DNA from: a bacterium
GTDB taxonomy: Bacteria; Lindowbacteria; 2-12-FULL-62-27
DNA: 48,058 bases
Direction: 5' to 3'
Assembly: GCA_016202645.1 (NCBI GenBank)
Contig: JACQOF010000025.1
Span: 1-48,058, forward strand
Within the stretch, counting starts at the first letter, position 1. Every line of letters begins with the position of its first letter. Of the stretch, positions 36,687 through 41,973 are shown one piece after another. The position numbers and the translations under genes are program-made. The notes beneath the pieces are model-generated. The model worked only from the letters and a program-made list of their open reading frames with translations. It ran no database searches and had not been told where the DNA came from.

Positions 36687-37574
36687 GTGCCTTATCTCGG
36701 CGCGCACGTCTCGGTGGCGGGCGGCGTCAGTACGGGCGTCGACCGCGCCGGGAAGATTTCCTGCGAGGCGTTTCAGTTTTTCGCGAAGAACAACAAGTGC
36801 TGGATGGAGCCGCCGATCGATCCTGAGGAAATCGCGCGATTCAGATCCAAGGCTTCCGGGTATCCGCGCGAATTTTTGATGTCCCACGCCGGCTACCTGA
36901 TCAACCTGGCGTCGTCAAACCCGGACGTTCACCGGCGGTCGATCGAATCGATGCGGGACGAATTGGTCCGGGCCGCCGCCCTTGGCATCGGCTGGGTGGT
37001 GCTCCATCCGGGAAGTCACACCGGGCTCGGGGAGGAACGGGGCATCCGGCAAATCGTCGAATCTCTCCAGAGGCTTCTGGACGAAACCCGGGATTTCCGG
37101 ATCGGCATACTTCTTGAGACAACGGCCGGGCAGGGCACGTCGATCGGTTGTGCCTTCGAACACATCGCCGCCATCCGCCACGGGCTTCGGCCGGCCCGCC
37201 GCGTCGGCGTCTGCGTCGACACCTGCCATATTTTCGCCGCCGGGTATGAACTTCGGACCCGGGATGGGTACGAATCCACGATGAAACAACTCGACGCAGT
37301 AATCGGACTACGATGGGTCAAGGCCTTCCACCTGAACGATTCGCTCAAGGGCCTCGGCAGCCGGGTCGATCGGCACGAGCACATCGGGAAGGGTGAGATC
37401 GGCCTTTCCGGATTCCGGTTTCTGATGAACGATCCCCGATTCGCCGCCCTGCCGATGGTCCTGGAAACGCCAAAAGGCCCGGACATGGCGGAAGACGTGC
37501 TGAACCTGCGGACGCTTCGGAGGCTCATGGGGCGGTCCGCAAATGTCAATAATGTCAATACCCGGCCCCATTAA
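36687..37574 (+). CDS. nfo: Endonuclease IV (AP endonuclease)
   Basis: 295 residues from GTG 36687. Nfo cuts DNA 5' to abasic sites. Visible: LGAHVSVAGGV, FQFFAKNN, MSHAGYLINLAS, LHPGSH with a metal-binding His, LETTAGQG, VCVDTCHIFAAGYEL with the zinc His, FHLNDS, DRHEHIGKG, and VLETPKGPD. The ten C-terminal residues (NVNNVNTRPH) come from the 25-base repeat at 37547-37571, so the natural tail was replaced or extended. Its stop overlaps the convergent OMP gene. Confidence 0.93.
   Translation: MPYLGAHVSVAGGVSTGVDRAGKISCEAFQFFAKNNKCWMEPPIDPEEIARFRSKASGYPREFLMSHAGYLINLASSNPDVHRRSIESMRDELVRAAALGIGWVVLHPGSHTGLGEERGIRQIVESLQRLLDETRDFRIGILLETTAGQGTSIGCAFEHIAAIRHGLRPARRVGVCVDTCHIFAAGYELRTRDGYESTMKQLDAVIGLRWVKAFHLNDSLKGLGSRVDRHEHIGKGEIGLSGFRFLMNDPRFAALPMVLETPKGPDMAEDVLNLRTLRRLMGRSANVNNVNTRPH
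37547..37571. repeat. 25-base exact repeat, copy 2
   Basis: Identical to 55-79. It encodes the end of nfo and touches the stop of the OMP gene on the other strand. Confidence 0.7.
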
Positions 37575-38359
37575 CGCTTTTTCCTGAAGGCGTCGAAGTC
37601 CACGTCGACTTCGACCACGAACTGGTTTCCGGGCGTCAGTTTGTCGTTGTTCTGGTCGACGAAGCCGAAGGACAGGCTCACGTTCGGGGCGAATTTCCAG
37701 CCGAACCCGTAGGTGAACGTCCCGTAGGTGCTGTTGCCGGACATGTAGTCGAGGTTGATGGAAAGATTTTCGGAGATATGGCCGAGGGTTTTGTCCCACG
37801 TGATCATGACGCCGTCCTCCGACGCGTTTCCGTTTTCATCCACGAGGAGTTTCCGGTTGCCGCTGTAGGCTCCGCCCGACAGGACGCCCATGCGGCCGAA
37901 GTTTTTCGATGCCTTGATATAGAGGACGTCATAATCTGTCCCGGTCTTGGCGGTCTTGCCCGTTCTGGCCTCGCCTCCGCGTTTTAAACCGAAGGAATAT
38001 AGTCCAACGGCGAAAGCGGGCGACGAGGACCAGAGGGTGCCTTCTCGAAATCCGAGTTTGCCATTGAGATAGATGGGGTAAGTACCCTCAATGTGATCGA
38101 ACCCGAGTTCGACGCCCGTTTTTTCCGTGGCGTAGACTCCTCCCGTCAGTCCCAGATTCGTAATCGTGCCGGGTCTTGCGCCCCGCGGCTTTTTGACCGG
38201 CACATACACGTCGGTCGTGATGTGCATCGTCCGGTAGGGCTGGATGTCGATGGACGGCGTCCACAAGTGGGAAGACGGCGTGGCGCCGGCCCGCGCGGCG
38301 ATGAGACCCACCGCGAGGATCGATCCGGTGATGGAGAGAAACGCGTGAAGTTTTTTCAT
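37571..38359 (-). CDS. Outer-membrane-type protein coupled to the bufferin operon
   Basis: 262 residues from the ATG at 38359, which overlaps the bufD stop by 4 bases. A signal peptide (HAFLSITGSILAVGLIAARAGA) is followed by alternating-strand sequence with aromatic ends (TMHITTDVYVPV, GVELGFDHIEG, GTFTYGFGWKFAPNVSLSFGF), as in a small beta-barrel or porin-like protein. The last residue pair is basic rather than the usual C-terminal Phe. It is the fifth and last gene of the operon. It might pass the metal or peptide through the outer membrane, but this is only an inference. Confidence 0.65.
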   Translation of the reverse strand: MKKLHAFLSITGSILAVGLIAARAGATPSSHLWTPSIDIQPYRTMHITTDVYVPVKKPRGARPGTITNLGLTGGVYATEKTGVELGFDHIEGTYPIYLNGKLGFREGTLWSSSPAFAVGLYSFGLKRGGEARTGKTAKTGTDYDVLYIKASKNFGRMGVLSGGAYSGNRKLLVDENGNASEDGVMITWDKTLGHISENLSINLDYMSGNSTYGTFTYGFGWKFAPNVSLSFGFVDQNNDKLTPGNQFVVEVDVDFDAFRKKR

Positions 38360-38820
38360 GATGGCCCCTGTTCGTCGAGTCCGAGTTTCCTGGAAATCAG
38401 ATGATCCAGGCTGGCTCTGCCAGGTCCCGCGGTGGCGAGCCACAGGAAAATCGCCAGGTAGGCCCATTCCGAAAGCCAGAAGAAATCAAGCAGTGACTTC
38501 ACTCCGCCCATTTTGGCCGTGGCGATCGCCACGCCCATCACGAACGCGAGGGGGACGGAAATCAGCCGCGTGCAAAGGCCGAGGACCAGGAGGAGCCCGC
38601 CGAAACATTCGGTGGCGCCGGCCATAAAGGCGTTCACGTGCGGCATCGGGATTCCCAGGCTTGCGAAGAACCCCGCGGTTCTATCGAGATGCTCGAGTTT
38701 TCCCTTTCCGGTGTCGAAGAACGCCCACCCGATCGAAACGCGAACCAGAAGGGGCGGCAACCAGTCGATTTTGGACAGCAAACTCAAACCCAGCCGAGAA
38801 CATTGCCGGATGACGTTCAT
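38356..38820 (-). CDS. bufD: DoxX-family membrane protein (BufD position)
   Basis: 154 residues from ATG 38820 with AAGGAG nine bases before. DoxX proteins have four helices: PPLLVRVSIGWAFFDTGKGKLEH near the start, FMAGATECFGGLLLVLGL, LISVPLAFVMGVAIATAKMG and WLSEWAYLAIFLWLATAG. In bufferin operons a DoxX protein follows bufC. An ATG nine bases earlier is too close to the ribosome site. The start region overlaps the bufC C-terminus by 140 bases in another frame. Confidence 0.8.
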   Translation of the reverse strand: MNVIRQCSRLGLSLLSKIDWLPPLLVRVSIGWAFFDTGKGKLEHLDRTAGFFASLGIPMPHVNAFMAGATECFGGLLLVLGLCTRLISVPLAFVMGVAIATAKMGGVKSLLDFFWLSEWAYLAIFLWLATAGPGRASLDHLISRKLGLDEQGPS

Positions 38821-39604
38821 CGGGTCCATCTCCTTTCGGGGCGCAGAACCAGCCGTTCGCCACGCCATTTTGAAACCAGGACCCGATGTTGCGTTCCAGG
38901 ACCCGGGTTTCAGCCGCCGAGAGCTTACGAGCGGCGGACGCGCAGGCCGACGAGAGGGTTGCGCCGGAGTGAAGTTTTTGAAGAAGCCTGAAAAATGGTT
39001 TTACGATTTTCTTATGATAAACCCTGTTCTCGCGCCGGTAGACCACCGTATACGCCGTCGATCTGGCGCGCCGCATCTCAAGGAGGGAGAGGTGGGGTTG
39101 AAGCTCAAGCGGCCGCTCTGCCAGCCTGGATTTTTGCGCTTCCGAAAGTTTTGCCGGATCAAAGGAAGGCCGCTGTGGATTATCGAAGGCCTCGATTTTC
39201 GCCCACTCGAAGCGGATCATGTTGAGCGCCGCGCCGCGATCCCGCCCGCGGTATCGGCGCCGCATGAAATCGAACAACTTCGCGCCGAGATTGCGAAGCG
39301 TGTAGGACGTGGACGGATGCTTCACCAGATAGCGTTCAGACCACGCGGCAAATCGTTTTTCGCCGAGCATCTTCGCCAGGCCCGGAAAATCCTCCCTCAA
39401 GGAAGATTTGCATCGCGCCCAATAATCCCGGACGTATATCAGCAGGCGGTCCCGCGACTGGCCGCTCTGTCCTTCGGTCAGATACCGGCCGGCCGCCCGC
39501 GCGACCGAATCGAACCGGGATTCGGGCGTGCGGATGGCCCGGCAGAACCATTTCTGGAGGTCCGACAAATCGGCCGGATTACGGCCGCGATGCGCCGGGC
39601 GCAT
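38681..39604 (-). CDS. bufC: BufC-like protein (DUF2063)
   Basis: 307 residues. N-terminal LSDLQKWFCRAIRTPES and LLIYVRDYWARCKSSLREDFP are typical of the DUF2063 partner of BufB, needed for recognition of the precursor. The family normally ends near GWFCAPKG; here the frame continues about 45 residues further, over the start of bufD. The start overlaps bufB by 26 bases. Confidence 0.8.
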   Translation of the reverse strand: MRPAHRGRNPADLSDLQKWFCRAIRTPESRFDSVARAAGRYLTEGQSGQSRDRLLIYVRDYWARCKSSLREDFPGLAKMLGEKRFAAWSERYLVKHPSTSYTLRNLGAKLFDFMRRRYRGRDRGAALNMIRFEWAKIEAFDNPQRPSFDPAKLSEAQKSRLAERPLELQPHLSLLEMRRARSTAYTVVYRRENRVYHKKIVKPFFRLLQKLHSGATLSSACASAARKLSAAETRVLERNIGSWFQNGVANGWFCAPKGDGPDERHPAMFSAGFEFAVQNRLVAAPSGSRFDRVGVLRHRKGKTRASR

Positions 39605-40520
39605 AGAGCGCCTCCTGGATGTCCCGGGCCTTGAGGGCCTCCGCGTGAACGTCCTTGAACGGCGGGATGTTGTCGTCGCGTTCCAGCATCATCGAAACGC
39701 CGCCGACGAGCCTGCAGGCCTCGCGATAGAGGTCCCAGACTTCGTCCCGTACCGGATGATCGTGGGTGTCGAGGACGTAAGTTCCATAATCGGTGTGACC
39801 CGCGACATGAATCTGCACCACGCGCTTGTGAGGGATGCCGCGCAGGTAGTCCAGCGGATCAAATTCGTGGTTCCGCGCGGAGACGTAGATGTTGTTGACG
39901 TCGAGCAAAATTCCGCATCCGGCCTTTTCGACAACAGCCGTGAGAAACTCCCACTCGGTCATTTCTGAACTTTGAAACTCGACGTAGCTCGACAGGTTTT
40001 CGAGAAGAAACGGTTTTTCGAGATAATCCTGCACGATACGGGCCTTCCGCGCCACGTGGTCCGCCGTCGCGCGCGTGTAAGGGAGCGGCAGGAGATTGTG
40101 CATCTGGTGCGCGCTGTGTTTGCACCAGCAGAGGTGGTCGGAGAACCAGGGGGAACCGGTGAGTTTACTGAGGCGTTTGAGCTTCCGGAGGTACTCGCGA
40201 TCAAGCGGATCTGTACTGCCGATCGACATCGACACGCCGTGATGCACGACGGGGTAGTGTTCGAGAAACTGCTGGAGAAAGTAAATCGGCCGGCCGCCCT
40301 CCACCATGAAGTTTTCGGAGATGATCTCGAACCATCCGACGTCCGGCCGGTCGGTCAGGATATCCCGATAATGGGGAATGCGCAGACCAAGCCCGATCCC
40401 CAGGTTGGGGGCATTAAAAACATTTTTCGTATCCGGAGCGAGTGAAAAAGAACCCGTCGGCCCTTTAGGTGGTCTTACAGCCGCCCTGCCCCTTGCATTC
40501 GTTGTGGCCTTTGCAGGCAT
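39579..40520 (-). CDS. bufB: DUF692 multinuclear iron oxygenase (BufB)
   Basis: 313 residues from ATG 40520, which has GAGGGG upstream; an ATG at 40562 is an alternative. DUF692 enzymes modify Cys of a ribosomal peptide with iron. Visible: GIGLGLRIPHYRD near the start, WFEIISENFM, HHGVSMSIGS, LEHYPVVHH, FLLENLSSY, GCGILLDVNNIYVSA, VVQIHVAGHTDYGTYVLDTHDHPV and LERDDNIP, with the His, Asp and Glu ligands of the iron site. It starts 56 bases inside bufA. The product belongs to the bufferin/methanobactin-type enzymes, with its precursor gene adjacent. Confidence 0.9.
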   Translation of the reverse strand: MPAKATTNARGRAAVRPPKGPTGSFSLAPDTKNVFNAPNLGIGLGLRIPHYRDILTDRPDVGWFEIISENFMVEGGRPIYFLQQFLEHYPVVHHGVSMSIGSTDPLDREYLRKLKRLSKLTGSPWFSDHLCWCKHSAHQMHNLLPLPYTRATADHVARKARIVQDYLEKPFLLENLSSYVEFQSSEMTEWEFLTAVVEKAGCGILLDVNNIYVSARNHEFDPLDYLRGIPHKRVVQIHVAGHTDYGTYVLDTHDHPVRDEVWDLYREACRLVGGVSMMLERDDNIPPFKDVHAEALKARDIQEALYAPGASRP

Positions 40521-40734
40521 TTTTCCCCTCAACCGCGCATCCGCCCTGGCCCTGGCACGCATTCATGCCCTTGCAGGCGTGCTTTTCCATGGCCCCGTCC
40601 GTTGCCTCGGGCTGCGAGGGCTCTGGCGCGGTAGGCGCCGGCGGTTTGCCGCATCCGATTTGAGCAAAGCCGACCGTCAAGAGACCGGCGACGGCCGCGG
40701 CGACGACGCCGTTTTTCCGTGAAGCGATTTTCAT
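40465..40734 (-). CDS. bufA: Cys-repeat peptide precursor (bufferin-type, BufA2-like)
   Basis: 89 residues with an AGGAGG ribosome site. The N-terminal signal peptide ends at AQIGC, a possible weak lipobox. A Pro/Ala linker follows. The core is two repeats: KHACKGMNACQGQGGC and KNACKGHNECKGQGGC, i.e. C-x5-C-x5-C twice with 7 residues between. Bufferin precursors carry such Cys for oxygenase-made rings that bind copper. The gene begins 4 bases inside the end of the hsdM remnant, so its promoter must lie in or upstream of that remnant. Confidence 0.8.
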   Translation of the reverse strand: MKIASRKNGVVAAAVAGLLTVGFAQIGCGKPPAPTAPEPSQPEATDGAMEKHACKGMNACQGQGGCAVEGKNACKGHNECKGQGGCKTT

Positions 40735-40955
40735 TTTGTCCTCCTATGATGTGAAGTCCTGTCCCGTCCATCCGCTGGTTCTTGCGGAAAGGATTCTGCG
40801 TGTTTAACTCCGGCATTCCGGGAAGTCAATGGCCGGTCAGCGCTGTAGATGAGCGCGATGGTGATCTGCTCGACCTGGCTCTTGGGGTCTGGCACTTTAC
40901 CGACGAGGATGTTGCGGGCGGTGTCGATGCGGCGTTTGGTGTCGGTGTCGAGCAT
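40731..40955 (-). pseudogene. hsdM remnant, N-terminus only
   Basis: 74 codons. The first 37 (MLDTDTKRRIDTARNILVG, then KVPDPKSQVEQITIALIY) are the N-terminus of a type I methylase subunit. After about 40845 the frame continues into unrelated sequence (SADRPL...). All methylase motifs are lost. Its start sits 3 bases after the KilA-N gene. Confidence 0.7.
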
Positions 40956-40958
40956 TAT

Positions 40959-41408
40959 CTATCCCTTGAGTTTCTTGACTGCCGGAACGGAGGTCAACAC
41001 CTGCATCTGGCGGATGGCGATTTCATTCAGACGTTTGAGGCGTTCCCCCTGTGACAGTTTCATATGGGCGAAAGTTCCCCCGTATCGTCCGGGTCGGGAA
41101 ACAATCCCGATGGCGGCGGTTTTCTCAATCCATTGCTTCGGGGTCAGGGTAAAACTGTTCAAACCCGCCTGAATTCTAATCCCGTCGAATTCGACGGGTT
41201 TAAAAACAGGATTATTAAGCCGCTCCCAAACGCCGAGAAATTCGATGGTATTGCGGTTTCTGAGCCAATTACGAATCAGGTCGTCAATGCGCTCTGAATT
41301 CTTGTGGCGGGCAATATCCGTTAGGGAAATATAGTCGTCTTCCCTTTGCGTTAGGACAGTAACGGCCGTCCCCTTCACCCGCATGATTGCTTTCAGCGCT
41401 TTACCCAT
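40959..41408 (-). pseudogene. KilA-N domain protein with internal deletion
   Basis: 149 codons. N-terminal ISLTDIARHKN...IRNWLRNRNTIEFLGVWE is the KilA-N DNA-binding domain. After GRYGGTFAH the frame jumps to LSQGERLKRLNEIAIRQM, which in longer family members lies at the C-terminus. About 100 or more central residues are missing, but both ends are joined in frame. The GAGGAG ribosome site is intact. Whether the short protein is made is unknown. Confidence 0.65.
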
Positions 41409-41430
41409 AAGTGCTCCTCGATTTCATGGC

Positions 41431-41871
41431 TCAGGCGGCGAACTGGTTCAAGGAGACATAGTCCTTGACGTATTCAGGGATGAGCGCGCGGTACTTTTCC
41501 GGCACGGCGCGGAAATCGTTTGTGGAAAAAATCGGGTTGGTGGCCAGATCGGTAAAGTGGCGGCTCTCGATGATGTGGCGCACCTGATCGCTGGTGACGT
41601 AGGCCTTGAAGTAATTCTTGATGGCCGGGATGGCCTTGGCCTCCAGAACGATGAGCGGGAAGCCCCGCGCGTCGAGCAACAGAAAATCGACGAAGCCGCG
41701 TTCGGTCGTCTCGAAGTCATCGCCAAGCGCGTCGAGATCAGGCGACTTGATGGCGACAGTTGGTTCGAGCCGGATGTTGGCGGGGGCCTTGCCGTCGGGA
41801 AAGAACCGCCAGCCCGATGCTTCAAGCAGCCTGTTGATCTTGATGCGAGCTGTGGCTTCCTTTTCGGGCAT
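41431..41871 (-). pseudogene. hsdR remnant, both ends joined
   Basis: 146 codons from ATG 41871 with GAGGAG upstream. The beginning (MPEKEATARIKINRLLEASG, then GFVDFLLLDARGFPLIVLEAK) is the N-terminal nuclease region of a type I restriction subunit. The end (IIESRHFTDLATNPIFS...IPEYVKDYVSLNQF) is the very C-terminus. The helicase part of roughly 700 or more residues is missing. Confidence 0.75.
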
Positions 41872-41973
41872 TCGGGCTCCTCGTTCGGCGATGGTGATGA
41901 AGTAGTCTGACAATAATCAGATTAACCCACATAATGCAACGTTAGTACAACATAGGTAAGTTGTGCTTTGCAG

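Follow-up and report, generated by a model that had tools for sequence, protein, structure and literature searches.

A BufA2-type bufferin operon in Candidatus Lindowbacteria, probably extended in one genome by an unrelated gene for a putative outer-membrane pore

A bufferin operon of Candidatus Lindowbacteria ends in a translationally coupled gene for an outer-membrane-type protein: does this gene belong to the copper-binding peptide system that precedes it? In the established bufferin model, an MNIO enzyme and its partner make thiooxazole from cysteine residues, the peptide is exported through Sec, and copper is chelated in the periplasm (PMC12452194, PMC13097082). The locus lies in a window of 48,058 nucleotides (the whole stretch of DNA that was analyzed), and a preliminary description had recognized in it a bufferin-type operon of five genes, presented the C-x5-C-x5-C repeats of the precursor as new, and proposed that the fifth product could export or take up the loaded peptide. 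Here, we show that the first four genes form a bufferin operon of the usual BufA2 type (Buf2, six-Cys) and that the fifth gene is an accessory that does not belong to the core system. It is highly probable that the locus is a standard BufA2 operon to which an unrelated gene, most likely for a small-solute pore, has been joined at the 3' end, in this genome only among those compared.

All five genes are carried by the minus strand, within window positions 37571-40734, in the order precursor, MNIO (DUF692), DUF2063, DoxX/HvfX, and exported strand-rich protein:

40465..40734, minus strand: bufA2-type precursor, 89 aa (NF050166 Cu_RiPP_BufA2; homologue in the related genome G002)
39579..40520, minus strand: bufB, MNIO (DUF692) maturase, candidate start (PF05114, NF050167)
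38681..39604, minus strand: bufC, DUF2063 partner with a C-terminal RRE-like region (PF09836, weak NGO1945_C)
38356..38820, minus strand: doxX/hvfX, small integral membrane protein (PF07681, NF050144)
37571..38359, minus strand: fifth gene, 262 aa, exported, probable outer-membrane beta-barrel (ATGA overlap, homologues)

The five-gene arrangement described earlier is real, with the strand and the fifth-gene start at 38359 as additions, and each gene indeed overlaps the next, by 56 nt (with the MNIO starting at 40520), 26 nt, 140 nt, and 4 nt. The MNIO ORF spans 39579-40562; its frame opens at 40562, the domain is recognizable from about 40400, and the nearest ATG is the candidate start at 40520, from which the gene would overlap the precursor by about 56 nt. 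A search for ATG, GTG, and TTG between the precursor stop and the MNIO domain returned none. For doxX, 38820 was chosen as the best start on the basis of an AGGAG nine bases upstream. An alternative start of the fifth-gene ORF at 38467 was rejected because both the signal peptide and the ATGA junction fit 38359, where the ATG shares its ATGA with the doxX stop. A GGGG resembling a ribosome-binding site lies just 5' of this start, no terminator candidate was detected between doxX and the fifth gene, and the TAA of the fifth gene overlaps the stop of a convergent endonuclease IV gene; a promoter and terminator scan gave nothing above chance. The join between doxX and the fifth gene might be suspected of being an assembly artefact, given that the source assembly is incomplete and fragmented (82% complete, 146 contigs), but a random chimera rarely yields an ATGA overlap, an upstream GGGG, and an overlap with the endonuclease IV stop, and we consider an artefact extremely improbable. 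As a separate observation, doxX and the DUF2063 gene share about 130-140 nt, read in different frames, in both Lindowbacteria genomes that carry the operon (window 38681-38820; G002, L117 2931-3061); this is a long overlap.

The precursor comprises a signal peptide (judged by eye), a Pro-rich linker, and a six-Cys core, CKGMNACQGQGGC...CKGHNECKGQGGC. Six of its seven Cys form the core (C54/60/66-C74/80/86) with a spacing of 5,5,7,5,5, which the G002 precursor shares, so that the linker between the Cys triplets has 7 residues rather than the 6 usual in Buf2. The two C-x5-C-x5-C triplets themselves, previously thought to be a novelty, are the normal BufA2 (Buf_6/12Cys) core (PMC12452194) and occur in 71 of the 76 precursors that we collected, mostly with 5,5,6,5,5 spacing. 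An exported product with six Cys in two such triplets, encoded immediately before an MNIO gene, is what is expected of BufA2. The match to NF050166 (Cu_RiPP_BufA2), at 30 bits (E=4.1e-7), falls below the curated cut-off of 60; however, nine clear BufA2-like precursors adjoining MNIO genes in Verrucomicrobiota and Acidobacteriota likewise miss it, scoring 30-51 bits, and the cut-off therefore looks too strict for these phyla. The 60-bit line serves a database and does not define the family, and falling short of it does not on its own exclude BufA2 membership. Because a Cys at residue 28 follows the hydrophobic stretch, within a weak lipobox (AQIGC, with ASAGC as the G002 counterpart), lipidation of the precursor is possible. 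Buf2 precursors are six-Cys proteins of 51-367 aa, about 16% of which carry lipoprotein signals (PMC12452194).

The remaining core products were assigned by profile searches. The MNIO matches PF05114 (E=2.8e-109, 365 bits) and passes NF050167 (MNIO_BufB; 351 bits, cut-off 310), and it retains all 22 polar residues that are near-invariant in a comparison of 101 MNIOs. The DUF2063 protein exceeds the PF09836 cut-off (62.4 bits against 27.2) and has a weak NGO1945_C match, with 45 bits to NF050145 (HvfC), for which the equivalog cut-off is 142. DoxX matches PF07681 with 77 bits and passes NF050144 (HvfX; 82 bits, cut-off 80). Together with the precursor match, these profiles bear out the identification of the operon as bufferin-type.

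In gene order, signal peptide, C-x5-C six-Cys core, MNIO, DUF2063 protein, and DoxX, the locus resembles the bufA-bufB-bufC-doxX clusters of the Buf2/BufA2 (Buf_6/12Cys) class (PMC12452194). It is also similar to the captophorins, copper peptides with 5-thiooxazoles such as fontiphorin and oxazolin, in combining an MNIO and a DUF2063-type partner with Cys-Lys-rich exported peptides; captophorin precursors, however, contain EGKCG-type repeats (PMC13097082) where the window precursor has the Buf2 core. By analogy with characterized homologues, BufB and its DUF2063 partner would oxidize the core Cys, probably to 5-thiooxazoles, and the Sec system would export the peptide, possibly as a lipoprotein, to the periplasm, where it would bind excess copper, with DoxX/HvfX as the usual membrane accessory. 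Thiooxazole formation in the window precursor is thus proposed by extension from these systems, and for Buf2 itself the chemistry rests on mass loss and absorbance, not on a solved structure (PMC12452194).

The same four core genes, in the same order, are present in G002 (Candidatus Lindowbacteria bacterium nzgw232), which belongs to the same family as the window's genome and a different genus, with identities of 73% for the MNIO, 67% for the precursor, 50% for the DUF2063 protein, and 61% for DoxX. The fifth gene is absent from this operon, an outcome that the preliminary description had itself named as refuting its reading; doxX is followed after 37 bp by a tRNA-Ser and then by a regulator on the opposite strand. 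G001 has neither an MNIO gene nor the fifth gene. Conservation within Lindowbacteria is poorly tested by this comparison because it draws on just these two further genomes from the family.

The surroundings of the operon also differ between the two Lindowbacteria genomes. In G002 it is flanked by two tRNA-Ser genes (L117, 783-872 and 3426-3518), and in the window its neighbors are smpB, an ORF of the KilA-N type, and one that weakly resembles HSDR_N; the bufferin operon may have changed its position in the course of the lineage. The KilA-N ORF and the HSDR_N-like ORF (160 aa, sub-threshold match, E=0.035) lie upstream of the operon at 40959-41913 and may be what is left of a set of restriction or phage-related genes. 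A 74-aa ORF at 40731-40955, upstream of the precursor, was considered as the beginning of a type I methylase gene and rejected, with no supporting profile or PDB match.

Additional conserved genes are very rare in Buf2 clusters (PMC12452194), and the 3' outer-membrane-type gene sets the window operon apart from them. Other genes follow doxX elsewhere. Encoded in the same direction and no more than 70 bp past doxX is an ECF-type sigma factor (L039:9179-9775, L040:9311-9859, and about nine other Verrucomicrobiota BufA2 loci; two calls by Pfam, the others by sequence likeness); sigma factors have been reported in Buf1 clusters, not in Buf2 clusters (PMC12452194). In several Verrucomicrobiota BufA2 loci, doxX is closely followed by a gene for a DUF255/Thioredox_DsbH protein whose N-terminus resembles a signal peptide (L050:2831-4597, L063:9214-10968, L057, L067, L090, L091, L097, and L098; two Pfam-confirmed).

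The fifth protein has 262 aa, with a signal peptide, no Cys, and a mature chain of about 236 aa that lacks a hydrophobic helix (maximum 19-residue hydropathy, 0.84). Searches of Pfam and NCBIfam gave no usable match for it or its relatives, none of the solved structures is related to it by sequence, and a single-sequence AlphaFold2 model (pLDDT 31) was not used. Its homologues form a family of exported, strand-rich proteins of about 250 aa (alignment A6; L006-L031 and L139-L161), of which the fifth protein is a full-length member (E=4.9e-17 to the first homologue). Strand-like alternation averaged over the family exceeds that of all 500 shuffles, and many members end in DIDF or DINF, as in outer-membrane barrels, the window copy ending in FVVEVDVDF plus a short tail. 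The earlier assignment of an outer-membrane-type product outside the four-gene layout thus stands as a likeness, founded on indirect signs (the signal peptide, the strand alternation, the chain ends, and the absence of a helix) that are consistent with a barrel, and the widespread family of exported proteins is probably one of beta-barrels.

The distribution of this family points away from bufferins. Homologues of the fifth gene were found in 24 of 385 other genomes, belonging to many families (25 of 386 with the window's own), and a search of 297 genomes from one phylum gave 22 with the family, two of which had already been counted, adding 20 more; a contig scan with the fifth protein alone gave no match, whereas these whole-genome searches did, and a search of plasmids for the family gave none. 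Among the 386 genomes, 25 encode a family member and 23 an MNIO gene, and both occur only in the window's genome (1 against about 1.5 expected by chance). About 100 other MNIO loci, examined with up to 7 kb on either side (some contigs ending early), contain no family member, and within 1.5-5 kb on each side of the 44 other family loci there are no MNIO, DUF2063, or DoxX genes. Instead, the ammonium transporter gene amt, the PII gene glnB, or both lie near the family member in 30 of the 44 other genomes (1.5-5 kb on each side); in the other 14, neither neighbor was detected, and some family members adjoin an amino-acid permease or a Kdp locus. A literature search on an amt-linked outer-membrane family returned nothing relevant. 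From these neighborhoods, the family may be an outer-membrane partner in the uptake of ammonium and other small solutes.

The window copy departs from this pattern: it lies outside the typical amt/glnB neighborhood, following doxX, and the single amt gene of the genome lies on a different contig and has no family member as a neighbor. Its nearest relative, with 46% identity, is the G172 copy in an amt-glnB locus, and the two group together in the tree with moderate support (90/81). It is the only member found in a bufferin operon, and it is fast-evolving, with the longest end branch in the tree (1.21 against a median of 0.39). Its reading frame is nevertheless intact and retains the conserved residues of the family.

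What, then, does the fifth protein do? The exported, strand-rich character of the protein, its translational coupling to doxX, and a long branch that would fit a new role are all compatible with a dedicated outer-membrane conduit that secretes or re-imports the copper-loaded bufferin, the role suggested in the preliminary description. Such a role is unsupported because the family is otherwise linked to amt/glnB, its members never sitting with MNIO genes, and the gene is missing from the G002 operon and from all other bufferin loci examined. Moreover, the mature protein, at about 236 aa, would form a small barrel at most, too narrow for a folded 60-residue peptide, and the precursor Cys at the lipobox position would favor membrane retention; we regard the conduit as very unlikely. 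A broader version, in which an outer-membrane pore of the ammonium module was rebuilt as a bufferin outer-membrane gate passing either copper or the loaded peptide, is only slightly more credible and remains a long shot, although, if true, it would give a system regarded as purely periplasmic a step that spans the envelope.

An outer-membrane pore for the entry or efflux of copper or another metal, co-regulated with the bufferin that buffers it, is easier to reconcile with the family, given that the relatives pair with inner-membrane transporters of small cations (usually amt, once a Kdp locus) and the gene shares its operon with a copper-response peptide. The fifth protein has no Cys, however, none of its homologues was seen to have a copper gene nearby, and there is one instance only, making a metal-specific pore rather doubtful. 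The single occurrence also suits a neutral passenger, placed behind doxX by a chance rearrangement and with no functional link to the peptide, as do the long branch, which is compatible with relaxed constraint, and the differing surroundings of the two Lindowbacteria operons; the intact frame with its conserved residues and the exact ATGA junction speak against it, and we consider it possible but not probable. The ATGA overlap, the GGGG, and the lack of a terminator candidate speak for real co-translation, and the role of the fifth gene may therefore go beyond that of a passenger.

Most likely, a small outer-membrane pore was recruited once, to the 3' end of the bufferin operon. The gene would derive from a family that normally travels with amt and glnB, and its product would let small solutes pass passively through the outer membrane, its translation now tied to that of copper-response genes. 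A metal-specific pore and a neutral passenger are close rivals of the passive pore, and a peptide exporter or importer is unlikely; the barrel, the pore function, and the link to copper are all features that we infer.

Of the novelties initially claimed for this locus, the Cys pattern fails and the fifth gene reduces to an addition in a single genome. The analysis adds Candidatus Lindowbacteria to the bacteria with a BufA2 bufferin operon and indicates that the extra gene is no missing general component of bufferin systems, which averts a wrong model of peptide export. Arguably the more useful by-product is the amt/glnB-linked family itself, which recurs in many bacteria without a Pfam or NCBIfam model.
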